DNA from: an uncultured Oscillospiraceae bacterium
GTDB lineage: Bacteria > Bacillota > Clostridia > Oscillospirales > Ruminococcaceae
Length of the DNA: 64,000 nucleotides
Assembly (NCBI GenBank): GCA_949299455.1
Contig: CASGAN010000003.1
Span: 62,001 to 126,000 of the forward strand
Direction: 5' to 3'
Each line of letters starts with the position of its first letter. The first letter of the stretch is position 1. The notes under the pieces were generated by a model, which had not been told where the DNA came from, did not search any database, and was given only the letters and a program-made list of their open reading frames with translations. The translations under genes were made by a program, and so were the position numbers. This document shows positions 6,171-36,784 of the stretch, piece by piece.

Positions 6171-6240
6171 GAGGATTCCTCCTTTCTAAAAACAAGTATG
6201 TCCGTCATCGATTTGTTTATGCGAAACATTTTTTAAAAAT

Positions 6241-6280
6241 GAAAAGACAGGAAGCCAGCTGGGCTTCCTGTCTTTTCAAT
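6241..6280 (-). terminator. Terminator of the sigma factor-serpin unit
   Basis: A long near-perfect stem (AAAAGACAGGAAGCC with GGCTTCCTGTCTTTT) directly after the serpin stop; strong in both orientations. Confidence 0.9.
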
Positions 6281-6292
6281 CTGTTTCCTTGG

Positions 6293-7714
6293 TTATTCAG
6301 GCCGGTAGACACTGCCTGCAAAAAGCGGGAGACCGTCGTCACTGGTGACGACAAAAAGGAAGGGACGGTCGAGCACAAAGTCCATCTCATCCTCCGGCGG
6401 CGGTGCGGCACCGGCAAAATACATCGCTGTGTAAGCGGCGGCTGTCACACCCTCCTCGTCGATTGCCACGCGTACACCATGACTGGCTTTTGAAACAAAG
6501 ATGTCCTTCATATTCGTCATGGCGGAAAAATCGGCTGTTTTCTGGTCAAATACATCCGTTACGCCAAGTGATTTGAACACTTCGCGCAGATCCGTCTGCG
6601 ATGAGATGTCAAACTTCGGCACGGAGAGGTTGATCTTTAACGTTTTACGGTTCTCCCATTTCCCGTTTGACCGCAGAAATTCCATCAATTCATCTCTTTG
6701 AAGCAATTCCTGCACACGCACACCCTCCTCCGGCAAAATAAACCACATCGTGCCGCCGCCGTTTTCAAGAGGCTGTGCCACGGCACCGAACTGCTCCGCC
6801 CAGTAATACGTTTCCTGTCCCTGGCTGTGCATAAAGTCGCAGGTCATATCACCGGACAGTGAATGAAACACATCCGGCGTAGTATTCTCCTTACTGAAGC
6901 CGTTCGCCCACTTTGCCTGATAGTGCATAGCAGATGCGAGCGCCAGCACAGTTTCCGCATCGAATGCGGCATTTTGTGTCTGCTCTTTAAGCAGTCCGCC
7001 TGTCTGTTCATCAAGCCATCCCTGCAGTGCCTTATGAAAACCGTCAGACCCCATTTCCCCCTGATACGAAGAGGCATAATAGGTATCCGCCAAACGCTCC
7101 ATTGTCTCCGGAATAAACGAAATCCCCTCATTGAGCCAGACCGAGTTTGCCAGAATACAGGTGGTGGCACCGTCATTGCGGTACTGACCGTTCCACACGG
7201 CATATGCCTGACTGCGCAGCGCTTCGATGCTGTCCGTACCAAGCAGGCTGAGAATCTGCCCGCGGCTTTCCCCGCCGGTAAGCTCTGCCAGCATTCCAAG
7301 CGTCATATACGCACTCAGCGGGGCATATACCTTATTTTCTCCCTCTTCGCCGGACAGTGTCTGCCGGATACTGCTTTCAAAAAAGTTCTCAAGCCCATTC
7401 GCATATCCTGACGGCTGCTTCTGCGCTTGCACGGAACTTTGCCATGCGTCAAACTGTTGTTCAAAAAAAGGACTCATCTGATCCGGATAGGATGCCATCT
7501 GCGGATAAACAGCCTCATTGATCGCATAGGCAGTCGTGAAAAATGACGGATTTGACGCATACAGCCACCCGCTGACCGCTACTGCCGCAATAAGAACTGC
7601 CGCCGCTGCCCGCATCCACCACGAGGGTTGGCGGCGATACCGGTTCCTTTGGCTTCTTTCAAGCAGACGTTCATCCGCTTGCCCAATCGCTTGATATAAA
7701 TCCTCTCTATTCAT
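6293..7714 (-). CDS. Membrane-anchored serpin (candidate anti-sigma partner)
   Basis: 473 residues. Residues 1-30 are a charged cytoplasmic stretch (MNREDLYQAIGQADERLLER), 34-52 a transmembrane helix, 55-100 a linker, and about 105-473 a complete serpin fold. The reactive-centre hinge DEEGVTAAAYT starts at 419 with small residues as in inhibitory serpins. Counting from the hinge Gly puts P1-P1' near Ala-Ala, suggesting elastase-like targets. FVLDRPFLFVV and the C-terminal strand are present. The start overlaps the sigma gene by 8 bases and has its own AAAGGAGGG. The short N-terminus resembles proteins encoded beside ECF-type sigma genes in Clostridia, so sigma binding inside and a protease trap outside is my inference. 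Confidence 0.88.
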   Translation of the reverse strand: MNREDLYQAIGQADERLLERSQRNRYRRQPSWWMRAAAAVLIAAVAVSGWLYASNPSFFTTAYAINEAVYPQMASYPDQMSPFFEQQFDAWQSSVQAQKQPSGYANGLENFFESSIRQTLSGEEGENKVYAPLSAYMTLGMLAELTGGESRGQILSLLGTDSIEALRSQAYAVWNGQYRNDGATTCILANSVWLNEGISFIPETMERLADTYYASSYQGEMGSDGFHKALQGWLDEQTGGLLKEQTQNAAFDAETVLALASAMHYQAKWANGFSKENTTPDVFHSLSGDMTCDFMHSQGQETYYWAEQFGAVAQPLENGGGTMWFILPEEGVRVQELLQRDELMEFLRSNGKWENRKTLKINLSVPKFDISSQTDLREVFKSLGVTDVFDQKTADFSAMTNMKDIFVSKASHGVRVAIDEEGVTAAAYTAMYFAGAAPPPEDEMDFVLDRPFLFVVTSDDGLPLFAGSVYRPE

Positions 7715-8269
7715 CGAAAAATCCCTCCTTTATCAAATGCTGCCGAAGCCGTGTTCTTGTCCGGCTGAGCAGCACAGACACATGGTTGCGCGTCATACCA
7801 TAAGACGCCGCAATTTCACCGATGGGCTCGGTGAAAAAATACCGGCGCAGAAACACATCTCCCTCGCGTACCGGAAGTGTGCGGAGAAAGGCGTTCACAG
7901 ACTGTGCAAGTTCCTTTGCCGTCAGTGTGTCCTCCACATCGCACGCGGACGGAATACACTGCGACAACTCCTCAAGCGCCAGACTCACCTGACCGCCGCC
8001 CCGCTTCTGTGCTGTGCGGTGCCGCCACAGATCGAATGCAATGCGGCGGGTCAGCTTCGCAAAAAACATCCGCAGTGCATCGGGACGGCTCGGCGGAATC
8101 GCATTCCACGCATGAAGCCAGGTGTCATTCACACACTCTTCGGAATCCTCTCTGCTTTGCAGGATATGATGCGCAACGGTGAAACAGTATGCCCATATTT
8201 CTCATTCGAACGAACAATGGCATCCGGACACCGCCGCCAGTACAGTGCAATAATCTGTTTATCTTCCAT
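7707..8269 (-). pseudogene. ECF-type sigma-70 factor, frame broken at 8192-8194
   Basis: The natural start is the ATG at 8269, behind AAAGGAGGG. That frame runs for 45 codons (MEDKQIIALYWRRCPDAI...) and ends in TGA at 8133-8135. The sigma sequence continues in another frame from about 8191 (AYCFTVAHHILQSREDSEECV, written here as adjacent pieces AYCFTVAHHILQ and SREDSEECV) to the stop at 7707. Restoring one G to the GGG at 8192-8194 gives one 187-residue protein, normal for the family, with region 2 (NDTWLHAWNAI) and region 4 (IGEIAASYGMTRNHVSVLL). The downstream piece could restart at the ATG at 8132, which abuts the TGA. A homopolymer sequencing error, a real mutation, or a stop-restart arrangement are all possible. 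Confidence 0.8.
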
Positions 8270-8444
8270 AAACGCCCTCCTTTCGTGCCTGAAAAGACTT
8301 TCACTCTATAAGACGAAAAAAAGCAATCAATATTACGGTTTATTTTAACAACAGTGTATCATATTTTTACCGGTTTCGCCATTCACGGGCTTTTTATCAT
8401 AGAATGAAGTTTTGCAATTCCAAAAAAGGAAAAGCAAAAAAGCG

Positions 8445-8493: not shown

Positions 8494-8569
<76 letters not shown>

Positions 8570-9040: not shown

Positions 9041-9578
9041 CTACGGAACAAAATACTGTACGGACTCTCTCACCGTGGAAGAAGAACAGTTAAAGAAGGC
9101 AGTCGTCAGAACCATTAACAAATTCAATGCCGAAAACGCTGCCACATACCGTATGCTTATGCGTTCTACCATCGGAGAAGCAATCGGCCTCAACGGCGGA
9201 TCAGACGAGATTGACCTGCTTGAAAGACGGATCGATGCCCTCAACAAGAGAATGCTCGCCCTTGTAAACAGCACCGTAGAAAACGGTGAAGATATCGAGG
9301 AATATGAGGATGAATTCAAATCCATCTCCGAACAGATACAGCAACTGCGGAACAGGATAACAGCAATTCAAGAAAGTAATCAGAAAGACGGTGAACTTCA
9401 GGAGCGATTAAAAACAATCCAGTCCATTATCGATGAGAGAGAATCGAACAAGGATACCTACGATGAATCCATCGTAAGACAGATGATAGAATGCATCAAG
9501 GTGTTCAAAGACGGAAGACTGCTCGTTATCTTCGGCGGTGGATATGAAGTGGAGATAAATATCGAAGAAACAGAATGA
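8982..9578 (+). pseudogene. C-terminal remnant of a large serine recombinase
   Basis: In this frame the sequence opens after a TAG at 8979 and reads TWSKKGKKKVVWRCCSRLDYG, i.e. the last half of the zinc-ribbon region of large serine recombinases (pieces VVWRCCSRLDYG and TKYC are the usual signature), then a long coiled coil (about 70-150) and the usual C-terminal strand GRLLVIFGGGYEVEINI. The resolvase domain, the recombinase domain and the first two zinc cysteines are missing. A GTG at 9075 could start a 167-residue protein from the coiled coil. It is on the plus strand, unlike the intact recombinase at 14980, so it is probably from an earlier or different insertion. Confidence 0.85.
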
Positions 9579-9594
9579 AAAGGAGAAAATTGAA

Positions 9595-10342
9595 ATGACC
9601 GTAAATGAGCAAATCAATGAATTCAACAAAGAAATATCGCCATTCTATATCGTAGCACACGATAACGGCGACTATAGCCTGTGCCTCGCTTTCAGCTTTC
9701 TCGAAGACGAATATGCGGATTACGGGCAGGCAGCCTTTGATGCCTACGCAAAAGAAATCGGACAGCCGGAAAGAGATCGGCAGGGATTCTGCACACACGG
9801 AAACGGATATGAATGGGATGCCGCTTTCAAGGAAGCCTTTAAGGACGATCCCAACATTCGCCAAATTCATTTTGACAGTGAAGCCGGCAGTTTTTTCTGC
9901 GACAGTCCCGACCTGCCCGTGATCATGGACTTTGCAAAGTGATTCAAAGCATTGGTAGATGACACCGAAGCCTTTACTCCGATTGTATCCGCAGGTATCA
10001 GGCAATACGAGAAGGAACAGAGTGAATATGAAGAAATCCAATATACAATAAAAGGGCGCATTATGGATTACAGCGACTGCACCATAGATGTGCGCACCGT
10101 ACAAGGCGATATCCGACTGACACCCGGAGATATCAAAGACCTGCTTGACAATGAAGTCGAACACATCCGAATCGGGGATGAAACAATCCCTGCAAAACTT
10201 CTTGATGCAGGATGCCGACAGAATACAGCGTGACCTATTCAACCCCGGCGTGTATCGGCTTATCACCAATGAAGCATTCGAGATGCAGGAACATCCCATT
10301 GAATACAGTGAACCGACTGCAAATGACTCACAGCAAATGTAA
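9595..10342 (+). pseudogene. Unknown protein, possibly Imm51-like N-terminal part; nonsense plus frameshift
   Basis: AAAAGGAG precedes the ATG at 9595. The frame reads 115 codons (to MDFAK) and hits TGA at 9940, then continues without break in the same frame (FKALVDDTEAFTPIV) to a stop at 10233. From about 10203 the apparent continuation (MQDADRIQRDLFNPG ... SQQM) lies in another frame to 10342. The intact ancestor would be about 248 residues. The block with a Glu-Ala-Gly motif (FDSEAGSFFCDSPDLPVIMDF) recalls the Imm51 family of toxin immunity proteins as I remember it; this is unverified. CGA to TGA at 9940 is the simplest first lesion. Two independent lesions argue for a dead gene. Confidence 0.65.
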
Positions 10343-10344
10343 AA

Positions 10345-10420
10345 GCAAACAGCGAACAGACCGTATAATCTGTTCGCTGCCTGCACTCTTTATCTGTTTC
10401 AAGAGGCGAATTTAATCCTC
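10345..10420. repeat. Left copy of a ~76-bp direct repeat bracketing the ATPase gene
   Basis: Contains the hairpin CAGCGAACAG / CTGTTCGCTG and a degenerate version of the coding end of the ParB-like gene at 12033. Compared by eye with 11995-12071 it is roughly three quarters identical, with 15 of 15 matches at the start and 10 of 10 in the second hairpin arm. The last nine bases overlap the ATPase stop region. Confidence 0.75.
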
Positions 10421-11779
10421 ATACAGATCATTGCCGTCAAGACAAGGAATGCCCGGATGAACGCTTTCAAATCCATTGATAGAGATAAACCCTATCGTTC
10501 CGATTTTTAGTTCTGGGATAGCCTGCACCTGCATAATTTCGGTTTCTATCTGCTTATCGGTCATGGGTGATGCTAAATATTTTGCTTCGTAGATATCAAA
10601 AGCGGTTTTTGTTTTGATAACAACATCAAATTCACCATTCTTCTTTGCCTTTGCATCATCGTAATAAAATGTTCCGATGTTGAGAATGCCTTTTCGTTTT
10701 CCGCTTTGGACTTGCATGGAAAAATAAGAACGGCATATATCTTCAAATCGGTAAGATATGAAGGTGATAAGGGAATCTTTGATATACGCCTCATAAAAAG
10801 CTTCTGCTCCTAAAACCTGCAGGGCGCTTTTATTGCTGTAAACATAGGTGTAAAAGAAACGCAGGAGATTGTCGGTCAGTTCGTATCGAGCCATTTTATT
10901 GTTATTGGGCTTATTTATCGGGGCGACTTTGGACACAAGTTCCATGTTCAGCAATACCTTTAATTGTTTACTGAGCAGTCCGTTTCCGTCCATAGACAGT
11001 TTCGATTCAATCTCCGAATATTTCTTTTTGCCGTTTGCAATGGAAAACAGAATACGCTCGGCATTGCTGCTTGTAGACAAATCCGAGATCAACAGATTAT
11101 CCGCATAATGAAAGATTGCACTTGACGGATTGAGGATTGTGGAGATAATATTCTGCTCCAATGATTCTTTCGGATGCAGTAATTCATTGACAAAAGGCGA
11201 TCCGCCAAACACAGCATACATGGCGGCCTTATCATAAGGAGTCTTATCCGCATAAAACTGTGCGGTTATTTTGTAATCCAATTCTTTCAGACAGATAACG
11301 GAATCAAACCTGCCGTACAGAGCATTGCCTTCCTCCAGCAAATCCTTCATGATTGAAATATGAGAACCGGAAATAAAAAGCCGTATGTTTTTGATGTGAT
11401 TGTCAATGATACTCTGGAACATAGAGTCAACTGTTTTTGCAGGAGTGAACTCTTTCATGTAAGGATACTCGTCAATAACGATATTGAAAGTTTCCGGAAG
11501 CGTATTCAGATACGCAAACAGATCAATGAAGTTATCAAAAGACATCCGGACAGGCAGAACCTTTGCCGCCAATAACACCGAAATCAGTCCGTCAACATTA
11601 TCTTTCATCGGAGCCTTTAAGCACTCGTAATAGACGGTTTTATTCGCATCTTTTTTGAGTGCGTGAGTAATAAGCGTAGTTTTACCTATTTTTCGTTTCC
11701 CGTAAACCATAACGCTTGCAGTATTTTTTGAAAGGGCTTTCTTTATGATGGCAAGCTCCTTTTCCCGACCTATAAACAT
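10412..11779 (-). CDS. AAA+ ATPase with C-terminal DUF234-type nuclease-like domain
   Basis: 455 residues from the ATG at 11779, preceded by AAAGGGGTG. It begins MFIGREKEL, then a Walker A variant GKRKIGKTTL near residue 30, a Walker B-like NIVIDEYPYM near 115, then a winged-helix region (MDGNGLLSKQLKVLLNMELV). The C-terminus has the E-x-D ... E-x-K pattern (GEFDVVIKTKTAFDIYEAKY), as in the PD-(D/E)XK-related DUF234 domain of archaeal-type ATPases. These proteins are common cargo in bacterial elements and their function is largely unknown; defence or toxin-like roles have been proposed. It has its own promoter and operator and sits in a duplicated repeat, so it looks like a separately inserted module. 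Confidence 0.85.
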   Translation of the reverse strand: MFIGREKELAIIKKALSKNTASVMVYGKRKIGKTTLITHALKKDANKTVYYECLKAPMKDNVDGLISVLLAAKVLPVRMSFDNFIDLFAYLNTLPETFNIVIDEYPYMKEFTPAKTVDSMFQSIIDNHIKNIRLFISGSHISIMKDLLEEGNALYGRFDSVICLKELDYKITAQFYADKTPYDKAAMYAVFGGSPFVNELLHPKESLEQNIISTILNPSSAIFHYADNLLISDLSTSSNAERILFSIANGKKKYSEIESKLSMDGNGLLSKQLKVLLNMELVSKVAPINKPNNNKMARYELTDNLLRFFYTYVYSNKSALQVLGAEAFYEAYIKDSLITFISYRFEDICRSYFSMQVQSGKRKGILNIGTFYYDDAKAKKNGEFDVVIKTKTAFDIYEAKYLASPMTDKQIETEIMQVQAIPELKIGTIGFISINGFESVHPGIPCLDGNDLYED

Positions 11780-11793
11780 AGCGCACCCCTTTG

Positions 11794-11851
11794 CTGAATT
11801 TATTTTCACTGAAACTAAATTCAGTATAAATTGTTTATTGAGATTTGTCAA
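11794..11851 (-). promoter_or_regulatory. Promoter and inverted-repeat operator of the ATPase gene
   Basis: On the minus strand TTGACA (11846-11851), 17 bases, TATACT (11823-11828). A perfect 9-bp inverted repeat, TAAATTCAG (11816-11824) and CTGAATTTA (11794-11802), overlaps the -10 edge and the start of transcription, where a repressor would act. The repressor is not identifiable here. Confidence 0.65.
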
Positions 11852-11994
11852 TACAAAAGTCGTTGAATTAGAAAAAAGTTCAATATTATTTTGCTTCCGA
11901 TTTCCGAAAATATAATTGTGTTTTACCTGTCTTTCATAGAAACAATACTCATAGGTAAGGAACAAGATGAAGAAGTGGTCTTAAAAACGGAAGT

Positions 11995-12071
11995 GCAAAC
12001 AGCGAACAGGCAGCATGGTCTGTTCGCTGTTGTTACTCCTCTTCTGTTTCAAGAAGCGAATCAAATTCCTC
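11995..12071. repeat. Right copy of the direct repeat; gene end plus terminator hairpin
   Basis: Holds the last codons of the ParB-like gene (SLLETEEE, stop at 12033) and the following hairpin AACAGCGAACAG / CTGTTCGCTGTT (11998-12030), which is the natural terminator-like end of the minus-strand operon. The other copy is at 10345-10420. Confidence 0.75.
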
Positions 12072-12914
12072 CGAATCATCAAATTCCTCTTCGCCTGCAT
12101 CATTCTCAACCCAAAGAGAAACATCACGCTCATATAGCATACGGATATTAAGGCGATATGCGGCACTTTTCTTTTTTCCGTTGTACTCAATAATCATTGC
12201 CTCGGCAAACCCCATAGAACCCGGTCTTCTCTCTTTGGCAATGCGCGTCAGTGCCTTGATGGACATCGCTCCGCACTTCTCTTTGAAAACCTCTTCGTTT
12301 AATTGTCCCTTGTAGATGACAACAAGTTTGGCAACGGCATTGAGAATATTGGCAGAAAACGAATTCATATCACCCTCCCACGCACCGATAATCAATCGGA
12401 GAACACGACTAAGGACATGAATGCCGTACTTCTGATAAATGGTTTCAAGCGAGGAGACGGCACAGATGACGCCCGGTGCTCTCTTTGCACCGATTTCAAG
12501 ACCGTATGACTCCACCAAATCACGAATCATAAGCTGATCCTGATTCTGTGCTTCGAGATTAGCCATGAATACTTCGTAAGGCTGCAGAGGTTTCACAAAC
12601 TTCATCTGATTGGCGAAAATATCGGCCTCGTGGGAGTAGGAAAGATCATCATATATCATGCACCACACCGGCGTCTCCCGAGATCCGGATACCTTTGCAA
12701 CAATCTCAATGGTATGCTGACCGTTGAAAACATAGTTAATCCCGTCACGGCGGCTGACCTTTACGGGATTGATCTGGTAAAGGTCAAAATTTTCCGCCGC
12801 TTTCTCAATGTGAGCTTGGGAAAGGTTTCGCTGATAATCTTGGTTTGAAACAAGGTTTTTTATCGGAATCTTTTCAAAATACACATTGGGGACGAATTGG
12901 TCTAAGCAACTCAC
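12033..12914 (-). CDS. ParB-like nuclease-domain protein (second of a pair)
   Basis: 293 residues, GTG start overlapping the stop of the upstream ParB-like gene (GTGA). Residues 13-75 form a ParB/Srx-like N-terminal domain (IPIKNLVSNQDYQRNLS, then NYVFNGQHTIEIVAKV, where GQHT stands for the usual G-x-H-R). The middle has helices like those of element-borne ParB relatives, and the tail is very acidic (EEEFDDSEEFDSLLETEEE). It is the last gene of the recombinase operon. ParB relatives act in partition, as CTP-switch clamps or as nucleases; which applies here is not visible. Confidence 0.75.
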   Translation of the reverse strand: MSCLDQFVPNVYFEKIPIKNLVSNQDYQRNLSQAHIEKAAENFDLYQINPVKVSRRDGINYVFNGQHTIEIVAKVSGSRETPVWCMIYDDLSYSHEADIFANQMKFVKPLQPYEVFMANLEAQNQDQLMIRDLVESYGLEIGAKRAPGVICAVSSLETIYQKYGIHVLSRVLRLIIGAWEGDMNSFSANILNAVAKLVVIYKGQLNEEVFKEKCGAMSIKALTRIAKERRPGSMGFAEAMIIEYNGKKKSAAYRLNIRMLYERDVSLWVENDAGEEEFDDSEEFDSLLETEEE

Positions 12915-13864
12915 GATTCATCCTCCTTTATCGCTGTGATCATTTCTTCGACACTGTCCTGCAGAGATTGCAACGCATCCATCAGTCTGTATTTCGCATA
13001 GGAAGACACAATAGAAAGATCTGCTCTGCTGCGGGTGCGTTCAATAGAACTCGACCATGACGGAATAGTGAGAATCAGACTGCTGACCTCGGCATCCGGA
13101 TCAAAAGCCGGCATATCCTTGACAGAAGGCCCCTGCGGTTCGTCATTATCCTCCGACTCTCTCCTTCCCATATTATTAATAGCGGTGCGAGTCCGCTTAT
13201 ACTGAACAAAAGGAGCAGCTTTTGCATCAATTTTACGGTTAACCTTACGCATCTCATCAGGTGACAGCCTTGACAGCTCAACAACATTTTTGTGAGAGAT
13301 TTTATAATTACCCGACAAAATCTTGTTTACCAGTTTCGGTTCGTGCTTGCCGATCTCATCAAGTGCCCGTGAATAGTTTGCATACTTCTGAACTGTCCCA
13401 TGCGAGATGTGGTGCTCATCAGCAATTCGTTCTGCAGTGCGGTGCGTTATCTCTGCCATAGTCAGCCCCTCGGATGCATTAAAGTGATCGTCAGCGGTGT
13501 ATTGATTGACTCCCCGGGCATTCCGCTTGCTTGTCATGATTTTTTCATTCTGATACTGCAAGCCTATCAGGTACTTGCGTGTTTCTTCCGAAATATTTCG
13601 TCTTCCGAGCTGATTAGAGCAAATCCAAGCGATAACCGCCTCCCGACAGTCGAAATCCATCTCTTGAATTTGAAAAGGGATCTTGTGCCGATGGCAAATC
13701 TCATACCGATTATGTCCGTCAACAATAATTCCGTTCCAAGTGATAATCGGCTCACGGCAACCGTCCGTCATGATATTGCTTTCCAACTGAAGATACTCTG
13801 CTTTTCGAAGCTTTGGTATCAACGCCTTAAACTCGGGATCAATTTTTAATCGCAATAACTCCAC
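12911..13864 (-). CDS. ParB-like DNA-binding protein (first of a pair)
   Basis: 317 residues. The GTG start follows GGAGGT and directly abuts the TAA of the preceding gene. The N-terminus has a ParB-type pocket (REPIITWNGIIVDGHNRYEI, with GHNR as the G-E-R-R-like motif), then a helix-turn-helix region (ERIADEHHISHGTVQKYANYS) and a C-terminal part of charged helices. Unlike chromosomal ParB there is no ParA next to it and no parS-like palindrome was seen. Position behind the recombinase genes suggests binding to the element's own DNA, for example at attachment sites; this is inference. Confidence 0.75.
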   Translation of the reverse strand: MELLRLKIDPEFKALIPKLRKAEYLQLESNIMTDGCREPIITWNGIIVDGHNRYEICHRHKIPFQIQEMDFDCREAVIAWICSNQLGRRNISEETRKYLIGLQYQNEKIMTSKRNARGVNQYTADDHFNASEGLTMAEITHRTAERIADEHHISHGTVQKYANYSRALDEIGKHEPKLVNKILSGNYKISHKNVVELSRLSPDEMRKVNRKIDAKAAPFVQYKRTRTAINNMGRRESEDNDEPQGPSVKDMPAFDPDAEVSSLILTIPSWSSSIERTRSRADLSIVSSYAKYRLMDALQSLQDSVEEMITAIKEDES

Positions 13865-14245
13865 TTAATTACCTCCCTCGACACGCATCATCGTGTCCAA
13901 CGAAAAGAAAGCTATCTTCTCATTAGGACGAACTTCTCCCGTCAATCTGTATGTACAGTCCTTCTCTAATTTTGGGAGTAAAGACATCAAAGTTGATACC
14001 AACTGTTTGCTGTAAATCTCAAAGGATGCATCTGTTTTAAAAAAGGAATAGTTGACTATATGTGTGTCTTTATCCCTTTTATCAAGTCCCCGGATGGCAA
14101 CAATTTTCTCCGTAGGATTAACAAGAAGCTGCAAAAACTTAGGTTGTCCGAGCTTCACTAATGTCGTTCTGTGAATGCGAATCCTATCCTTTTTCATGTC
14201 AATGGCAAAAGGCACGGTAATTTTGTTCTCATCCATTTTCACCAC
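13865..14245 (-). CDS. Stand-alone recombinase-tail paralogue, short form
   Basis: 126 residues, start inside the end of the preceding gene (17-base overlap). The core RIRIHRTTLVKLGQPKFLQ followed by LLVNPTEKIVAIRG matches the same block in the next gene upstream (ITFNKCKIYVNTASLSKF ... VLINRETKILALRP) and in the C-terminal tail of the serine recombinase (VTFNHKKIKFSTACVRKF ... LLINPISRKFAVRP). A second shared block is CTYRLTGEVRPNEKIAFFSLD, matched by YKLLGTVIHSKGEYLLAFDL and YRILGSLYEQDGEIAYIFDV. No known fold or function is recognised. It may be a subunit of a multi-protein integrase. Confidence 0.75.
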   Translation of the reverse strand: MVKMDENKITVPFAIDMKKDRIRIHRTTLVKLGQPKFLQLLVNPTEKIVAIRGLDKRDKDTHIVNYSFFKTDASFEIYSKQLVSTLMSLLPKLEKDCTYRLTGEVRPNEKIAFFSLDTMMRVEGGN

Positions 14246-14999
14246 CTCCGATTAATGTCGCTTCAGAGGGCAAACTCAGCACCGAATCCGCACCGTTATC
14301 ATCGGAAACAGGTTCAGTATGTTTAGTCGAATTATCTTTAATTGCATAAATAGCGTATCCGTCAAAGATATTAACCTGCATCGACTGCCGATGTTCATAG
14401 AAAGGCAAACCAAATTGGTTTTGCCAACCGGATGGAAATACCGGCGTTCTTGATGCTTTGGGCTTTTCACCCTCCGCATAGGTTCTCTGATAAACCTCAG
14501 TGGATGACAAGTCGAAAGCAAGCAAGTATTCACCCTTGGAATGGATGACCGTCCCGAGCAGCTTATAGCGGAAATCGGGATTCCACTCCATCATAGTAAA
14601 TATTTTTGCAAAGAACAGCTTGCAGGTAATCTGCTTCGGCTTCCGCTTTCCCTTAGACATGTAACACCAAGGGAATGAATCCCTTTCACCTTCACAGCAA
14701 GGCCGCAGAGCAAGGATCTTCGTCTCACGGTTGATGAGTACCTGCATGTATTCAGTATTGGGAAACTTGGACAGACTTGCGGTGTTAACATAGATCTTGC
14801 ATTTATTAAAGGTGATGGACGGCTCTCGAAGGTGGGCGAAGAACTCTCTTCTGACGACTTGGAAGTCACCGAAGTCAAAATCCTCACCCATATCAAGTAT
14901 TTCTTCCCCTTCGGAGAGTATCGGCCTCTTTTCAGGCTCAACCTCATTGCCCGAGGGGAATCGGCTATAGTTTAATTGCTCATCCATATTGCCTTGCAT
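14229..14999 (-). CDS. Stand-alone recombinase-tail paralogue, long form
   Basis: 256 residues; ATGs at 14999 and 14987 are both possible, each close behind AAGG. Residues about 38-215 align along the whole tail domain of the adjacent recombinase: REFFAHLREPSITFNKCKI, then QVLINRETKILALRP, then MMEWNPDFRYKLLGTV, then PVFPSGWQNQFGLPFYEH, each with a counterpart there (SEFFENTRNPNVTFNHKKI, LFGWNTDYKYRILGSL, ESWTNTFGKEFYIHE). The catalytic resolvase part is absent. It overlaps the recombinase stop by 20 bases, so co-translation is likely. Probably a partner that shares the recombinase's DNA- or protein-binding tail. Confidence 0.78.
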   Translation of the reverse strand: MQGNMDEQLNYSRFPSGNEVEPEKRPILSEGEEILDMGEDFDFGDFQVVRREFFAHLREPSITFNKCKIYVNTASLSKFPNTEYMQVLINRETKILALRPCCEGERDSFPWCYMSKGKRKPKQITCKLFFAKIFTMMEWNPDFRYKLLGTVIHSKGEYLLAFDLSSTEVYQRTYAEGEKPKASRTPVFPSGWQNQFGLPFYEHRQSMQVNIFDGYAIYAIKDNSTKHTEPVSDDNGADSVLSLPSEATLIGGGENG

Positions 15000-16878
15000 T
15001 CCTTGCTTCCTCCATGTTTATCCCTTTTAACTCTTCTTGAATAAATGCCTTTATTTCCGCAAAGCTTGTGATATTGCGTCGCTCCTCAGAAGCCACAATC
15101 TGACCTTCCAAACGGAGCATCCAATCCTCCTCGCTTTGCCGTTCCAGTTCGGCAAGAGTCTTTTCGTGAATATAAAACTCCTTGCCGAAAGTGTTTGTCC
15201 ATGACTCAGGAATCGCACGGATACGCTTCCCCGATGGCATTAACGGCTGTACCACAGGTTTGCCGTCAACGGTTGTGCCTTGCGTGGGCAGCACATAATT
15301 TTTGAAATATGCCTCTGAATCCTTCACATCGAAGATATATGCAATTTCACCGTCCTGCTCATACAAAGAACCGAGGATGCGGTATTTATAGTCCGTATTC
15401 CAACCAAACAGAGAATAGACAGTCTCGCTGAACGCAGCGGTAGACACATCTTTCGGATAATACTTTCCGAAATCCAACTTAGAGAAAACCACGGCATTAC
15501 GGTTGTTCGGTGTGGTCGGACGGACGGCAAACTTCCGGCTGATCGGATTGATAAGCAGTTCAACAGCATTGTTTTTATCAAATTTACGGACACAGGCGGT
15601 GCTGAATTTGATCTTCTTATGATTAAAAGTCACATTGGGATTGCGTGTGTTCTCAAAAAATTCAGAACGGGTAATCTCAAAACCTCTTAAATCAAAATCA
15701 CCGGCTTGTACTTCAATATTGAATTCTTCCAAATCCTCTGTTATTTCGGACGGATCGTAGACACTGCGGCAAGCTTCAAAATAGTGCTGTTCCTTGAAAC
15801 CCGACCACCGGGGATTAATGACAACAAAGCCTTTTAGCATTCCGCTGTCAATGACACGAAGCTCGGGCATGATGCTTTTATTGCCGTACTTCATATTGTC
15901 AAGCAGATGCTGAACGGCAATATAATCATCTCTTGAAACGATTCCCTCATGGTGGTCGTAGTACCAACTGTGCGGTCTTGCATTAATATTCTTTGCTTTC
16001 TTGTGGCTTTTAAAGCTGACAGTATAAGTCTTTCGGGTAAATACATCTCCACAGTGCCTTTCGTTGCGGAGAATCTGCACAATAGAATTGGATGTCCACA
16101 AGGTGGTATTGCCCTTGTAGGAGGCCTTTTCGAGAGCAATAAATGCATCGGCAATCTGCTGCGTGGAATACCCATACAGATACATAAAAAACGCAAGTTT
16201 TACGGTGTTTTTCTCATCGGGATTGATGACCAAGTCGCCGTCTGCATTCTGATAATATCCGAGAAGCCCTCGGGTCAGTGGCAGTCCGTTATCCAATCGC
16301 ATACGCAGAGAGGACTCCATGCTGCGGCTTCGGGTATGGGACTCTTCCTCTGCCATAACCGACTGAAAAGAAAGCGCCATCTGCGAATCATCATTGAGAG
16401 AAAATATCGCTTCGCTTTCAAAAAAGACACCGACAGGCGGCTTCTGCTCGGTTAAAGAACGGATGGTACCGAGGAAGTCCTCAACATTACGGGCAAAACG
16501 GGAAACGCTCTTTGTGATAATAAGATCAAGTTTATGAGCCTTGGCGTCCGACACCATTTGATTGAACGCATCCCGATGCTTAGTGGAAGTGCCGGAGATA
16601 CCCTCATCAGCATATATCTTGACAAGTTTCCAATGCGGATGCTTCTGAACAAAGTCCTCGTAATACTTCTTTTGCAGCTCGTAGGAAGTTGTCTGCCGGA
16701 TATCGTCTGTCGAAACACGAACATAGATGCCCACGTGCTGTTCCACATCGTTGTCGTAAAAATCGATTGGTTTCTCCTCGGGTATGTATTTATATTTACT
16801 GCGGTCAAAATCTGCATTAATCCGGCGTCTGACCCGTTCCTTCGCCGCCGCTTTATCTCTTCTCTTATCTGTATTCAT
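14980..16878 (-). CDS. Large serine recombinase with an unusual C-terminal tail
   Basis: 632 residues. The resolvase domain is at about 47-190 with catalytic Ser56 in IYVRVSTDD, Arg54, and SVSRFARN (Arg127, Arg130). The recombinase domain (PF07508 type) is at about 200-335. The usual zinc ribbon and coiled coil of large serine integrases are not recognisable; instead residues about 385-580 form a separate domain that recurs in the two following genes. All catalytic residues are present, so it should be active. It overlaps both neighbours (4 bases upstream, 20 downstream). As the only recombinase here with a complete active site, it is the probable integrase of the element. Confidence 0.92.
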   Translation of the reverse strand: MNTDKRRDKAAAKERVRRRINADFDRSKYKYIPEEKPIDFYDNDVEQHVGIYVRVSTDDIRQTTSYELQKKYYEDFVQKHPHWKLVKIYADEGISGTSTKHRDAFNQMVSDAKAHKLDLIITKSVSRFARNVEDFLGTIRSLTEQKPPVGVFFESEAIFSLNDDSQMALSFQSVMAEEESHTRSRSMESSLRMRLDNGLPLTRGLLGYYQNADGDLVINPDEKNTVKLAFFMYLYGYSTQQIADAFIALEKASYKGNTTLWTSNSIVQILRNERHCGDVFTRKTYTVSFKSHKKAKNINARPHSWYYDHHEGIVSRDDYIAVQHLLDNMKYGNKSIMPELRVIDSGMLKGFVVINPRWSGFKEQHYFEACRSVYDPSEITEDLEEFNIEVQAGDFDLRGFEITRSEFFENTRNPNVTFNHKKIKFSTACVRKFDKNNAVELLINPISRKFAVRPTTPNNRNAVVFSKLDFGKYYPKDVSTAAFSETVYSLFGWNTDYKYRILGSLYEQDGEIAYIFDVKDSEAYFKNYVLPTQGTTVDGKPVVQPLMPSGKRIRAIPESWTNTFGKEFYIHEKTLAELERQSEEDWMLRLEGQIVASEERRNITSFAEIKAFIQEELKGINMEEARNARQYG

Positions 16879-17501
16879 CCAATCAAACCTCGAATCGGCT
16901 CACCGTCACAGAGCGTTTTATGTCCTTCGGGAAAGAATTCCAAGGAAAACATGTCATCTGTATAATAGGTAGCAAGTGTAAATATGTTTTCTGAAACAAA
17001 GTAAATCCCAACCGGATGCTCTTGGGCAGCAAGGATACTTGCAAGAAAGGTTATCTGTCTTTCTCCGTCCTTGCGAACTACATTGGAAACCTTCTGCGTG
17101 ATAATGAGGTCTATTTTACCCGTAAAGCAATCGTCAATCAGGCGTTTCCACTCGGGAGCATTCTCCATGTTCGGTGCGGTTTGCCCTTCATCAATATAGA
17201 AATCAACCAATGTCCACTTAGGACATAAATCAATGGCTTCCTTGAAATGAGCAATGTGCTTCTCAAGATAGTTTTCATGCTTGGTCTGATTGAAATAGCG
17301 AATATATACACCGATTTTATACGGATGTGAAGGATGCGGATACTGTTTGCGGATGGAAGCCATCTGCAAGCGGTGAGCGGCAATTCTTTCTGCTTTTTCC
17401 GAATCTCCGCCTATCAGCATCGCAACAGAAGCAGGAGCTTCATCGAGAACAAGCTCAGAATCGTTTGCCGTAAGTTTAAGTTGAGTATTGTTTTCTTCCA
17501 T
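16875..17501 (-). CDS. Resolvase-domain protein lacking the catalytic serine
   Basis: 208 residues, first gene of the operon, with GGGAG seven bases before the ATG. Residues about 62-195 clearly follow the resolvase fold of the next gene (KIGVYIRYFNQT against HVGIYVRVSTDD; FYIDEGQTAP; DLIITQKVSNVVRKDGERQ; GIYFVSENIFTL against GVFFESEAIFSL). At the nucleophile position there is Phe70 instead of Ser, and the first catalytic Arg is Asn in VSNVVRK. There is no recombinase domain after it. It therefore cannot cut DNA by the family mechanism and is probably a structural or regulatory partner of the active recombinase. Confidence 0.82.
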   Translation of the reverse strand: MEENNTQLKLTANDSELVLDEAPASVAMLIGGDSEKAERIAAHRLQMASIRKQYPHPSHPYKIGVYIRYFNQTKHENYLEKHIAHFKEAIDLCPKWTLVDFYIDEGQTAPNMENAPEWKRLIDDCFTGKIDLIITQKVSNVVRKDGERQITFLASILAAQEHPVGIYFVSENIFTLATYYTDDMFSLEFFPEGHKTLCDGEPIRGLIG

Positions 17502-17895
17502 TGGTTTATCTCCCGAGGTTATTATTTTTCTGAGGGTGTCCTCATTTTCTGAATGATCTGCCGAACATTCAAAAAACAGTCTTAAGTTTATTATATTAGC
17601 TTCAGCCGTTATGGAAATAATCCTGTAGTCAACAAATCAACCTATGGTTCAAATTCGACTTAAAAAATTTGTAAAACTGTGTATCGCTGACTCGAATTAA
17701 AGGTAAAACTGACGAAAAGCAAACTCTTTGGCATAAGCCCTTGTTGATAATGCAGTTCTATATAAACTATTGAAGCACGATTTATACAGAAAGAAGAATT
17801 TTCGGATTTATCACAAAACTGCTGGACTTATAAAAGGTTATGTGGCATTGTTGTGTTGCCCGAAAGGTAAAGTAAAATACGGAGGTAGAAAACCA
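17502..17895. other. Divergent intergenic region
   Basis: No gene is seen. On the minus strand TATAAT (17590-17595) about 95 bases before the operon start is a possible -10, but its -35 is poor. On the plus side the GTG at 17896 has GGAGGT at 17881-17886. The stretch 17600-17880 is AT-rich without clear repeats. Confidence 0.4.
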
Positions 17896-18270
17896 GTGAC
17901 AACAGAAAAAAACGATGTAGTCAAGGCAATCGGGACGATATGCCGCACCGCCAAAACAATGATGATAGTAAACGGTGAATACGAGGACGGAACAGTTCCA
18001 AAGCTTGAAGAAACGGCTGCCGCCCTTGCAAAGCACTTCGACCTCGGGGATGAGGTGATGGATAAGTACCGGGAAGAAATCGAAGCATCTAAGGAACTTG
18101 AATCAACCCCCGGAACAGCGGTAATAGATGTCGAGGATGCACAGGACATTATATTCGAGATGTGCAACAGTCTCACCGATCCGAAGGAGATCATGAGCCA
18201 CATGTTCAATGCCCGGGAACTGATGTATCTAAGCAACAAAGAACTCGAACAAAGAGAATCACTGTGGTAA
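17896..18270 (+). CDS. Unknown helical protein of the element
   Basis: 124 residues from a GTG chosen because GGAGGT lies nine bases before it; frames reading further up have no binding site. The protein is acidic, almost all helical (TTEKNDVVKAIGTICRTAK, then DAQDIIFEMCNSLTDPKEI), with no signal or membrane segment. It is transcribed away from the recombinase operon. No family is recognised. Size and position would suit an element regulator or excision helper, but there is no helix-turn-helix that I can point to. Confidence 0.6.
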   Translation: MTTEKNDVVKAIGTICRTAKTMMIVNGEYEDGTVPKLEETAAALAKHFDLGDEVMDKYREEIEASKELESTPGTAVIDVEDAQDIIFEMCNSLTDPKEIMSHMFNARELMYLSNKELEQRESLW

Positions 18271-18424: not shown

Positions 18425-18464
18425 AACGCAAAAAAAAGAAACAGATCAGCGAACTGACCTGTTA
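18425..18464 (-). terminator. Terminator of the minus-strand XRE gene
   Basis: Stem AACAG-TCAG / CTGA-CTGTT with one mismatch (about 18441-18463), followed on the minus strand by TTTCTTTTTTTT. Confidence 0.75.
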
Positions 18465-18827
18465 GAAATCGTAATTGTCTTTTTTGGAGTGCATTGTGAT
18501 TTTTAACTCTTTCACGATTTTCAGTATAGATTCTGTCTCGGCGGCGGTGCAATCCGAAAGCAGATCGGAAAACTCATTCTGAAGGAAACCCTTAACCTCG
18601 GGGATGTCGGGACGGAGCAAAAAATCAGCAGAAACCTGCAATGCCTCGACAAGCTTAATAAAAGTATACAGGTTCATTTTAACCTTGCCGAGCTCAAGCG
18701 CACTTATTTGAGGAAGGCATAGATGTGCCTTTTCAGCCAACTCGGCTTGACTCATTTTCTGTTTGACTCTCTCTGCTCTGATGCGAGAGCCGATTTGCTT
18801 GAAAACTTCCATTTCCAAGTCTTCCAC
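18462..18827 (-). CDS. XRE-family transcriptional regulator (minus-strand member of a divergent pair)
   Basis: 121 residues from GTG 18827, seven bases after AGGGGG; a GTG two codons earlier is too close to the binding site. Residues about 10-65 are a Cro/CI-type helix-turn-helix (IRAERVKQKMSQAELAEKA, LPQISALELGK). The C-terminus (FSDLLSDCTAAETESILKIV) matches the end of the plus-strand regulator at 18957 (FAALLADCTTYEKRIMLDLI), so the two are paralogues. Position between the integration operon and the cargo genes suggests a phage-like control switch. Confidence 0.88.
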   Translation of the reverse strand: MEDLEMEVFKQIGSRIRAERVKQKMSQAELAEKAHLCLPQISALELGKVKMNLYTFIKLVEALQVSADFLLRPDIPEVKGFLQNEFSDLLSDCTAAETESILKIVKELKITMHSKKDNYDF

Positions 18828-18956
18828 AGGCACACCCCCTTAATATAAGTTACAAAATATTATATAGTCCCGAGCCTATAATGTATATAAACGCTAAACT
18901 TAATTAACGGTCATAGACTATGATAGAAACATCAAAATTTTTAGGAGGTTTCTACT

Positions 18957-19313
18957 ATGACCACACATGATATTGAAGTTCTCGGTGCAAAAGTAAAGGC
19001 GATCAGAAAAAAACGGGGGTTTACCCAAGCACAGCTTGCGGAGCTTGTTGAGTGCTCCAACACCTACATTTGCTATGTAGAAAAAGGGACAAAATGCATG
19101 AGCCTTGACATGTTTATTTATGTTGCCAACGCACTCAATGTGTCGGCAGACGAATTACTGCAAGACTTCTTGGAAAACACTATCGCTGTTTCCAACCACG
19201 AATTTGCAGCTCTGCTTGCAGACTGCACGACATATGAAAAACGGATTATGCTGGATCTTATTATCTCGGCAAAGAAGTCGTTGCGTGAAAACCGCCGTCT
19301 TTTCCGCCCCTAA
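18957..19313 (+). CDS. XRE-family transcriptional regulator (plus-strand member of a divergent pair)
   Basis: 118 residues, AGGAGG nine bases before the ATG. The helix-turn-helix is at about 8-63 (KVKAIRKKRGFTQAQLAEL, NTYICYVEKGTK). The C-terminal helix pair is shared with the paralogue at 18462. It is divergently arranged from it across 129 bases that would hold both promoters. It probably controls the cargo genes that follow on the plus strand. Between its stop and 19549 there is only a loose hairpin (GGCAG...CTGCC, 19411-19437) and no gene. Confidence 0.88.
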   Translation: MTTHDIEVLGAKVKAIRKKRGFTQAQLAELVECSNTYICYVEKGTKCMSLDMFIYVANALNVSADELLQDFLENTIAVSNHEFAALLADCTTYEKRIMLDLIISAKKSLRENRRLFRP

Positions 19314-20446: not shown

Positions 20447-20518
20447 AATCATCCCGAACATCTCGGCTTGGGGAGAAGTCATGCAAAAATTACAGCACGA
20501 AGAAAGGACGGAATAAAG

Positions 20519-21169
20519 ATGCCCAAGATATTCTTTACAGGCGACCTACACTTCGGTCACGAAAATGTACTCGCCTTTGATAAGCGGCCGTTTGCCTCGA
20601 TCGAGGAAATGGATACGGAGCTGATTCGCAGATGGAATAATGAGGTGTGAAAGGGTGATCTTACCTATGTCCTCGGAGATATGATTTGGAAGACACGCAA
20701 CGATGACGCTCCAAGTCTTATTAAAAGCCTCAACGGACAAATCATTCTAATTAAAGGTAACCACGACCGCTTTCTCCACAATGCCAAAGCCAAGGCTGCT
20801 CTCGCAGGGCTGAAGGACTATGACGATATCTGCGTTGTCCTTGAAGACGGCATGCAGAAAAGAGTGATCCTTTCTCATTACTTCACACCCATGTACAACG
20901 GACACCGGTATCAGGCAATCCACCTGCACGCACATTCTCACTTCACGGACGAAGCCGACTACGAGGTGGATTTTGCGGAAAAGCTCAATGCGGAAGGTAT
21001 CCGGAACCAAATCTACAATGTGGGCTGTATGTATTGGAATTACGAACCTGTCACCTTGGATGAGATTATCGCCCACGGCAAAACAGTACGTCCGAATTAC
21101 GGTACAAGAGTAACAGAACTTAAGGATGATGCAGAAGATGGCGAGATATTACAGGCTGATCCTCGATGA
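20519..21169 (+). pseudogene. Metallophosphoesterase 2, interrupted by an in-frame TGA
   Basis: AAAGGA lies ten bases before the ATG. The first 43 codons hold the first metal motif (GDLHFGHENV) and end WNNEV at TGA 20648-20650. The same frame continues KGDLTYVLGDMIW, then IKGNHDR, ILSHYF and HAHSHF to the stop at 21169, so every active-site motif of the family is present in frame and only the one codon is wrong. GGA to TGA or TGG to TGA are the simplest lesions. The intact protein would be 216 residues. Natural readthrough cannot be excluded, but the element's other broken genes favour decay. Confidence 0.82.
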
Positions 21170-21785: not shown

Positions 21786-22310
21786 ATGGAAAATGAAAGC
21801 CAAATAAAAAGGGCATTTTGCTATGCCTGTTTTCCAAAAACATCAGAAGCGGTTGACGATGCATTGATGACCGCTTGTATCAACGAAGCATTACCGCAGG
21901 TAAACACTTATGTGGTAAAATCTTTTGTTGATGTTGACAACAAGAAGCAGCCGAAAAACAGGCCGAACTGGAACGCTATGATCGAAGAATGCCAAGAGGA
22001 AAACATCAATTTGATTGTTCTCCCCGAAGTCGCAATGCTGGCGCATAACACTATGGATGCGATCCTTTATGCAAAAGAAGCAAAACGCAAATACGGCGTA
22101 GACATGTATTTCCTTATTGAACGGCTCGACACCGCATCCGAGGATGCTGATGAGAGGATCGATGTTTATTTGATGCTTCAGGAGCAGCTCGAACAGCAGC
22201 AGAAACAAAAGAAGAAACTCAGAAAGCTATTCAGAGAATTAGGAGAAGTGATGGATGCAGACGGAAAATCCCGAAGAAATTACGATTACTATGGAGCAAG
22301 ATTTGTATGA
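21786..22310 (+). CDS. Degenerate resolvase-like protein without catalytic residues
   Basis: 174 residues, AAGGAA upstream. The region NWNAMIEECQEENINLIVLPE, read as WNAMIEECQE then NINLIVLPEVAMLAHNTMDAI and YGVDMYFLIERLDT, follows the resolvase pattern (F-x-M ... KIDLIITKSVSRFARN ... GV-x-VYF ... E-x-(I/L)-DT). Both catalytic arginines of SRFARN are replaced (AMLAHN), and the N-terminal IYVRVST position reads CYACFPKTS, so the nucleophile is not conserved. The C-terminus is a Gln/Lys-rich coiled coil (QEQLEQQQKQKKKLRKLF). It is the second catalytically dead resolvase-like protein of the element. Role unknown. Confidence 0.6.
   Translation: MENESQIKRAFCYACFPKTSEAVDDALMTACINEALPQVNTYVVKSFVDVDNKKQPKNRPNWNAMIEECQEENINLIVLPEVAMLAHNTMDAILYAKEAKRKYGVDMYFLIERLDTASEDADERIDVYLMLQEQLEQQQKQKKKLRKLFRELGEVMDADGKSRRNYDYYGARFV

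Positions 22311-36708: not shown

Positions 36709-36784
<76 letters not shown>

Follow-up and report, generated by a model that had tools for sequence, protein, structure and literature searches.

A conserved six-gene operon of recombinase-family and ParB-like proteins with an upstream palindrome in phages of Clostridia

The window described here is a stretch of 64,000 nucleotides from an uncultured bacterium of the Oscillospiraceae (assembly GCA_949299455.1, contig CASGAN010000003.1, positions 62,001 to 126,000), and it carries a compact six-gene operon, g1 to g6, in which a large serine recombinase is encoded together with a resolvase-fold protein that lacks the catalytic serine, two free copies of the recombinase's own tail and two ParB-like proteins. 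The operon falls into two clades, distinguished by whether g1 is detected, and a newly recognised 36-bp palindrome lies upstream of it in both. Tentatively, and with somewhat less than even confidence, the operon is read as an accessory, ParB-assisted serine-recombinase module of temperate Clostridia phages that belongs to the lysogeny region and works separately from the integrase, with maintenance as its likeliest role.

The six open reading frames (ORFs) are on the minus strand at 12033-17501 and overlap or abut throughout, by 4, 20, 17, 0 and 4 bases in the order of transcription, and both coordinates and overlaps reproduce those of a first-pass annotation of the window. The first gene, g1 (16875-17501, 208 amino acids), encodes the resolvase-fold protein, with Phe70 at the position of the catalytic serine, and is detected in one clade only. 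It is followed by g2 (14980-16878, 632 amino acids), a large serine recombinase whose checked catalytic residues are intact and in which a different tail replaces the zinc ribbon; g3 (14229-14999, 256 amino acids), a free copy of the g2 tail domain; g4 (13865-14245, 126 amino acids), a short free copy of the core of that tail; g5 (12911-13864, 317 amino acids), a ParB-like protein with a ParB N-terminal domain and helical domains; and g6 (12033-12914, 293 amino acids), a ParB-like protein of the DUF6551 family. The first-pass annotation had already proposed Phe70 at the nucleophile position of g1, an intact Ser56/Arg127/Arg130 in g2, free copies of the g2 tail in g3 and g4 and a ParB-like nature for g5 and g6, and the comparisons described below bear out each of these assignments.

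The search for the same gene order in other genomes, which that annotation had suggested as a check, gave a positive answer. Among 26 genome loci, found with g2 as the query in one genome per species, 18 have the complete set of six genes in unbroken order. Six more are cut or broken, four by contig ends (L010, L023, L031, L032), one with g6 at a contig end (L025) and one with a split g5 (L020, where about 1.1 kb of inserted DNA divides the gene within 12979-15296), and two deviate, L034 being merely a distant recombinase and L030 a fusion of g2 and g6 without g3 to g5. The L030 fusion is a single ORF of 871 amino acids (9162-11777) that joins most of g2 to g6; it may be natural or an error in a metagenome-assembled genome. 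On viral contigs the order is kept in 15 of 16, with an end gene cut in L036 (g6) and L039 (g1), and the remaining contig, L038, has no intact g5 or g6. Wider scans returned 171 loci with g2, g3, g5 and g6 in order and at least 200 bp of upstream sequence, several of the windows sharing contigs, and removal of near-identical loci left 63 non-redundant loci, 35 of them with g1 and 54 with a detected g4. As g1 is undetected in 28 of the 63, the core of the operon does not include the dead subunit. Identity to g2 ranges from 54 to 84% among the genome and viral loci and falls to 44-45% in two named phages, and that to g4 is only 31-55% among relatives; the gene order is not a matter of chance, because it recurs in other genera despite this divergence. 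Independent scattering of the six genes in relatives, which would have spoken against a unit, was not seen, but all of these loci were recovered by searching with one of the genes themselves. In the neighbourhood of the host the distribution is patchy, with near full-length matches to a g6 profile in three of 21 genomes, that of the window included, and two partial matches in a fourth.

The match of g1 to the Pfam Resolvase family is weak (E 4.8e-5), and its profile aligns with that of the g2 N-terminal domain at an hhalign probability of 99.6%. At the nucleophile position g1 has phenylalanine in 35 of 36 sequences and tyrosine in one, so that serine is absent from all 36, and the position aligned with Arg127 of g2 is asparagine in 35 and glycine in one. 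The residues flanking the nucleophile position (Y66, I67, R68, N71, Q72 and T73) are kept in 35 or 36 of the 36, and g1 thus looks like a conserved pseudo-enzyme rather than a decaying copy, a subunit apparently conserved in its dead state. The large serine recombinase g2 combines the Pfam Resolvase (1.1e-23) and Recombinase (PF07508, 2.8e-18) domains, and its residues R54, S56, K123, R127, R130 and E179 are all present in 64 of 64 sequences (the 63 loci and the window). Its best sequence relative in the PDB is 3g13, the N-terminal domain of a conjugative-transposon recombinase (E 1.3e-41). No zinc-ribbon family is among the Pfam matches of g2, and residues 335-420 hold at most one cysteine in 58 of the 64 sequences. 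The zinc ribbon is not strictly a defining feature, since it is also missing from 10 of 42 serine integrases of streptococcal integrative and conjugative elements (ICEs) (PMC4701971).

The tail that g2 carries instead is the common element of the next two genes. Profile comparison aligns g3 with columns 417-601 of g2 over 171 columns (hhalign 99.8%), covering the tail including its C-terminal part, and g4 with g2 over 97 columns (97.3%), covering the core of the tail only; g4 and g3 also match each other (96.2%). The predicted model of g3 has a predicted local distance difference test (pLDDT) score of about 90 in core residues 61-140 and of 66 overall, and its comparison with solved structures returned no significant relative.

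The last two genes provide the ParB side of the operon. A PHROG ParB profile matches g5 (2.2e-7), and a model of g5 with a mean pLDDT of 83.8 is placed by Foldseek closest to a pNOB8-like ParB N-terminal domain (E 8.1e-6, probability 1.00), followed by Noc and chromosomal ParB proteins at E 2e-3 and weaker; g5 is accordingly a protein with a predicted ParB fold. The matches of g6 are to Pfam DUF6551 (1.7e-30) and to a PHROG ParB-like family (8.7e-18). A 2025 survey reports in vitro CTP binding by one phage DUF6551 fusion and ATP binding by another, and orphan ParB proteins are known from plasmids and prophages (PMC12704722). These orphan phage ParB and DUF6551 proteins are like g5 in fold and g6 in family, and differ in that g5 and g6 are linked to a recombinase, whereas the main text of the survey makes no mention of a recombinase or integrase.

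A candidate target for these proteins emerged when the sequence upstream of the operon was screened for inverted repeats: an imperfect 36-bp palindrome with a half-site of approximately ATAAACCAGNGGTCAA and a 4-bp centre. The best arm match reaches at least 13 of 16 positions in 38 of the 63 loci, compared with 5 of 315 shuffles; the 38 include other inverted repeats, for example likely terminators. A recognisable consensus palindrome was accepted in 46 of the 63. Of 21 loci in the g1-less clade, 14 place its centre 70-79 bp ahead of g2. Scans at a score of 13 gave a single palindrome in G006 and G064 and in stretches of 50, 27 and 40 kb from three named phages, and two palindromes in G004 and G065, where the two copies are about 1 kb apart, with two helix-turn-helix (HTH) genes between them. 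The window has counterparts of these two genes, hthM (18462-18833, minus strand; Pfam HTH_3, 7.7e-10), which has relatives in the same place in many g1-clade loci, and the divergent repressor-like hthP (18957-19313, plus strand; HTH_3, 6.5e-10), whose relatives also lie beside the operon. In many loci the palindrome has the HTH genes on one side and the operon on the other, both intact, and does not lie at an end of the element. An alignment of 18 g1-clade loci shows a conserved TATAAT motif about 40 bp beyond the centre, so that binding at the palindrome could also regulate the operon. The 18-bp length of the half-site would fit the sites of serine integrases. The window itself has a weak candidate at 17617-17652, about 130 bp upstream of g1, suggested mainly by its expected position; its score of 13.4 is the best in the window and compares with a null (the best score in each shuffled piece, these being at most 20 kb long) whose 95% point is 11.1 and whose maximum is 19.5, and an earlier matrix placed no palindrome in the window above 13. 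A second family of upstream palindromes, GAGTGAG...CTCACTC, was set aside as likely terminators of hthM genes, judged by eye.

A DNA-binding protein and its site should diverge together, and partial rank correlations with permutation tests were used on this logic to ask which protein tracks the palindrome; many such tests were run, and the bracketed fractions are those of the permutations. Over 45 loci the correlation is 0.30 for g5 (2/1000) and 0.20 for g6 (13/1000), with no signal for g2 (0.07) or g3 (-0.11); in the g1-less clade alone g6 reaches 0.26 (2/500) and g5 0.17 (32/500). With hthP-like proteins added (39 loci), g5 stands at 0.41 (0/1000) and the hthP-like protein at 0.13 (53/1000). 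When the proteins of the 45 pooled loci are divided into domains, the recombinase domain of g2 (0.26, 0/1000) and the ParB domain of g5 (0.22, 1/1000) track the site, the C-terminal part of g5 does so weakly (0.15, 46/1000), and the g2 catalytic domain, g2 tail, g3, g6 and the middle helical region of g5 give no signal. Both leading values persist when clade is allowed for (g2 recombinase domain 0.25, 5/1000; g5 ParB domain 0.22, 16/1000). Within the g1-less clade, only the outer half-site is tracked by the ParB domain of g5 (0.27, 3/1000) and the N-terminal part of g6 (0.28, 2/1000), and the inner half-site weakly by the catalytic domain of g2 (0.23, 18/1000). Collectively, the covariation favours g5 as the protein that may bind the site, perhaps with g2.

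With regard to the elements that carry the operon, g3 matches 19 phage records (16 have PV0364xx accessions), and the three examined (PV036434, PV036453 and PV036458) are all assigned to Candidatus Heliusvirales. In PV036434 a repressor gene is followed by g2 to g6, two opposed recombinase genes (one annotated as an integrase, the other as hypothetical), an endolysin gene and tail genes; these components recur in PV036453 and PV036458, separated by a few genes, and all three records annotate g2 to g6 as hypothetical. The 74-kb record G006, in which g1 is present, has portal, terminase, capsid and tape-measure genes, then a recombinase pair and then the operon, and both clades thus occur on phages. 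A relaxase (PF03432), as expected for a conjugative element, was not found on 10 virus records, and this origin was rejected.

The companion recombinases bear directly on whether the operon is the integrase of its element. Among the 43 of the 63 loci whose sequence continues for 4 kb or more past g6, opposite-strand ORFs of ordinary large serine recombinases within 5 kb number at least two in 23, one in two and none in 18; the count is a lower bound, as an overlapping ORF masked the first such gene of L022, which is some 3 kb beyond g6. In part of the 18, recombinases occur farther off, at about 5 kb in PV036453 and at about 8-40 kb in G061, G063 and G065, and extra recombinases occur within the records of G061, G063, G065-G067, G073, G075, G077 and G078. 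G004 and G068 have only one weak extra resolvase match each. Tyrosine integrases were seen on none of 10 virus records and in 3 of 21 records of a second set; one tyrosine-integrase domain is in G062, which has no other resolvase, in a frame of only 183 amino acids. The ordinary pair adjoins the lysis genes in PV036434 and is within about 3 kb of them in PV036453 and PV036458, which is the place expected of an integrase. The operon thus seems not to be simply the integrase. The first-pass annotation had inferred that the operon is a multi-subunit integrase; the conserved six-gene unit, the dead g1 and the ParB fold predicted for g5 agree with its account of the genes, and a part as the integrase of the element is not supported, because ordinary recombinases accompany the operon in 25 of the 43 loci and lie farther off in others.

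An operon that is often beside ordinary integrases probably has a separate job on viral DNA. In the mechanism that we propose, g2 and its non-catalytic partners g1, g3 and g4 would assemble at the palindrome with the ParB-like proteins, which would act as a clamp or bridge controlled by nucleoside triphosphates and so determine when two copies of the site come together, and regulation of the operon would be a further effect of the bound complex. The likeliest job would be maintenance in the manner of plasmids, for example the resolution of phage genomes joined as dimers or in tandem, and not integration. The most specific form of this proposal, in which nucleotide-controlled clamps at the 36-bp palindrome license g2 and thereby add a second, integrase-independent recombination or maintenance step to the life of temperate gut phages, is a doubtful one.

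A number of observations weigh against the reading of the operon as a ParB-assisted maintenance module. No recognisable palindrome is present in 17 of the 63 loci, and none was found in two whole records, G061 and G062, at a score of 13. Neither a product of recombination nor a partner site was observed, and the paired sites about 1 kb apart share a central dinucleotide in none of nine cases, so that they cannot be ordinary partners and any recombination would have to join copies of a single site located on separate molecules or repeats. An invertible switch, with recombination between the two palindromes that flank the HTH pair, was rejected on the same mismatch of centres. The covariation is also uneven: in the g1 clade alone the signal is carried by g1, the gene nearest the site (0.34, 3/500); in 19 loci with an hthM-like gene it falls on g2 (0.37, 10/1000) and not on g5; neither the g2 recombinase domain nor the g5 ParB domain gives a significant whole-site signal within a single clade; and in the g1-less clade the value for the g2 recombinase domain is negative (-0.22). 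A ParA ATPase (PF13614) was not found in 24 of 25 records, of which many may be fragments and three are named phages deposited as complete (one record was positive, as were 14 of 14 control genomes), which makes a normal partition system unlikely for most of them. Compared with ParABS systems, the operon has the ParB protein, by the predicted fold of g5, and in 24 of 25 records no detected ParA; it also has a palindrome near its start, which is a candidate for binding by the ParB-like proteins. Lastly, the copies in L021 and L024 have no phage structural genes among the neighbours searched.

These last copies have features of their own. In L021 (7000-15700) the operon and HTH genes are beside nitronate monooxygenase and non-ribosomal-peptide genes, and in L024 they are beside helicase genes; L011 likewise has no phage structural genes among the neighbours searched and lies next to chromosomal or cargo genes, and all three could be relics or a free-standing unit. 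In an empty-site comparison for L021, relatives matched only the left gene and a little beyond it. The direct repeats of L021, in 59 families of which 20 were displayed, look like chance.

Of the alternatives, the one closest to the original proposal is that the proteins form a multi-subunit integrase or a complex for direction control, alone or with the ordinary recombinase pair, on phage attachment sites. In L048 (record G008) no ordinary recombinase separates the operon from the adjoining endolysin-like or peptidoglycan-binding gene and holin gene, which also counts against a separate maintenance role, and g2, with g1 where present, is the sole resolvase-family protein seen in G007, G008, G062, G064, G069, G072 and G076; in all of these but G062, with its short tyrosine-integrase domain, no other integrase of either the serine or the tyrosine type was seen, a further point against the preferred reading. 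Triplets of serine integrases are listed as the integration module of some Streptococcus ICEs (PMC4701971). Set against this are the ordinary recombinases in the surveyed loci and other records, the tyrosine-integrase domain of G062, and the position of the palindrome in many loci away from any element end; records without a recombinase pair, among them G004, G007, G008, G062, G064, G068, G069, G072 and G076, may also be fragments, as may G061, G063 and G065. On balance this reading is unlikely, though an integrase role is conceivable in the six records in which no other integrase was seen. The operon could instead be a complex for lysogeny control or immunity, with the palindrome as the site at which the recombinase-derived proteins and the ParB-like ones act as repressors. 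The operon's place within the lysogeny region, the palindrome at its upstream end with the TATAAT motif about 40 bp past the centre in 18 g1-clade loci, and the paired palindromes flanking two HTH genes all suit this idea, for which there is a precedent in MrpR of phage SPbeta, a protein of recombinase fold in lysogeny control that has lost its recombinase function (PMC10516654). MrpR has a tyrosine-recombinase fold without catalysis, whereas g2 keeps its six checked catalytic residues in 64 of 64 sequences, and g1 alone would fit the MrpR type. Nor does the palindrome behave as a plain -35 box, a possibility that was rejected since a normally spaced -10 box follows the internal TTGAC in 4 of 37 cases, compared with 12% in shuffles. 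A complex for lysogeny control or immunity is likewise an unlikely explanation.

It is rather improbable that the palindrome is no more than an operator of the HTH repressors, unrelated to g2-g6, with the target of the module elsewhere. Its location between the HTH genes and the operon is what such an operator would have, and in a nine-locus subset of the g1 clade hthP gives the top partial correlation with the site (0.37, 46/500). No HTH protein is prominent in larger sets: the hthP-like signal is the 0.13 given above for 39 loci, hthM-like proteins give -0.11 (740/1000, 19 loci), the g1 clade gives 0.18 and 0.01 (14 loci) and the g1-less clade -0.13 for hthP-like proteins (19 loci). Least probable, and only remotely so, is an anti-phage or superinfection-exclusion system of the prophage. 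The position in the lysogeny region would agree with it, as would an adjacent ATPase gene (10412-11965; ATPase_2/DUF234) that matches PADLOC PDC-S27 (E 3.8e-38); g1 to g6 themselves have no match in the PADLOC library of 2023 at E 0.01, and among 42 loci relatives of the ATPase are in L015, L038 and L043 only.

Known systems share parts of the operon. Large serine recombinases such as those of phiC31 and SPbeta (SprA) have the two domains (PF00239 and PF07508) and the checked residues of g2, which differs from them in lacking a zinc-ribbon family, in sharing its tail with the free g3 and g4, in its fixed partner genes and in its frequent position beside separate ordinary recombinases. In staphylococcal CcrAB, several serine-recombinase proteins also occur together, and both are active. 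The Streptococcus ICE triplets are a further case of several serine recombinases encoded together (PMC4701971). Unlike these and CcrAB, the operon has a g1 without the serine in 36 of 36 sequences, tail-only proteins in g3 and g4, and two ParB-like genes. Plasmid maintenance loci come near in another respect: RP4 par and P1 Cre-lox with ParAB bring recombinase and ParB-type functions together, with a site near a promoter. The operon shares this pairing and a promoter-near candidate site, and departs from these loci in that its enzyme is a large serine recombinase accompanied by a dead partner and tail proteins, and in that the phages bearing it often have integrases as well. Multimer resolution in plasmids uses one site per replicon near its own gene; here there are one or two sites per record where they were found. 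The nine core genes reported for the Heliusviridae do not include this block (PMC9226167), and among the titles and abstract openings listed by searches of an open-access library none described such an operon, nor was a paper with the accessions found there. The composition is unmatched by the Streptococcus triplets, CcrAB, the surveyed orphan ParB proteins and MrpR.

Large serine recombinases, a main tool of genome engineering, are commonly viewed as single-protein machines that act with a small direction factor. If the proposed mechanism is true, the operon would represent a new form of control over such an enzyme, through a pseudo-enzyme, free tail subunits and ParB-type switches, and it would connect ParB clamps with recombination, not segregation. 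A block of genes in human gut phages (Candidatus Heliusvirales) that is hypothetical in the three records examined also gains a testable function.

In the window the operon is part of a larger element. A C-terminal remnant of an ordinary large serine recombinase lies at 9075-9578 on the plus strand; its N-terminal part is gone and there is no full-length ORF, and its residues 1-164 are 63% identical to a recombinase of 543 amino acids in the same relative place in L035. Phosphoesterase genes follow beyond the HTH genes, and one of them (20468-21169, plus strand) is divided into ORFs of a single frame, 20468-20650 and 20681-21169, by one in-frame stop; its unbroken relative in L035 is 82% identical. 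The truncated recombinase and the in-frame stop imply that the element is a decayed piece of prophage in which the six-gene operon is intact. A 3,934-bp part of it, with g6 and the end of g5, is 99.7% identical in a genome of the same genus, G033, whose matching chromosome stretches are 90-94% identical, and the element was thus acquired or exchanged recently. Farther on, at 21786-22310, is a degenerate resolvase-fold protein (Pfam Resolvase, 5.6e-6) in which the usual catalytic residues are absent by eye, and whose best other match among the loci fetched by then is an ordinary recombinase (2e-9). This protein, the palindrome, the two HTH genes and the truncated recombinase are all outside the first-pass annotation.

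The ATPase gene is flanked by 77-bp direct repeats (10345-10420 and 11995-12071, 78% alike) in the manner of a small cargo cassette, and its relatives in L015 and L043 lie past g6. Between the HTH genes and the operon, an ORF of 166 amino acids (17770-18270, plus strand) has no match in Pfam, NCBIfam or PHROG, and a small ORF at 9595-9942 has a sub-threshold match to Imm51 (9.1e-5). Two identical tRNA-Met genes, at 8494-8569 and 36709-36784, were considered as ends of the element and rejected, the first being in a conserved place and one copy being seen in relatives, and no attachment site was fixed. The gene at 8494 has its conserved place in two genomes of the same genus, and the copy at 36709 is in a stretch absent from one of them. 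The stretch at 6226-8430, which includes a sigma-factor-like gene by eye, is absent from two same-genus genomes, where the sequence passes nearly straight from 6226 to the tRNA-Met. On contig 16 of G033 the same tRNA-Met has two other recombinase ORFs, in tandem, no more than about 4 kb away, which suggests a hotspot of integration.

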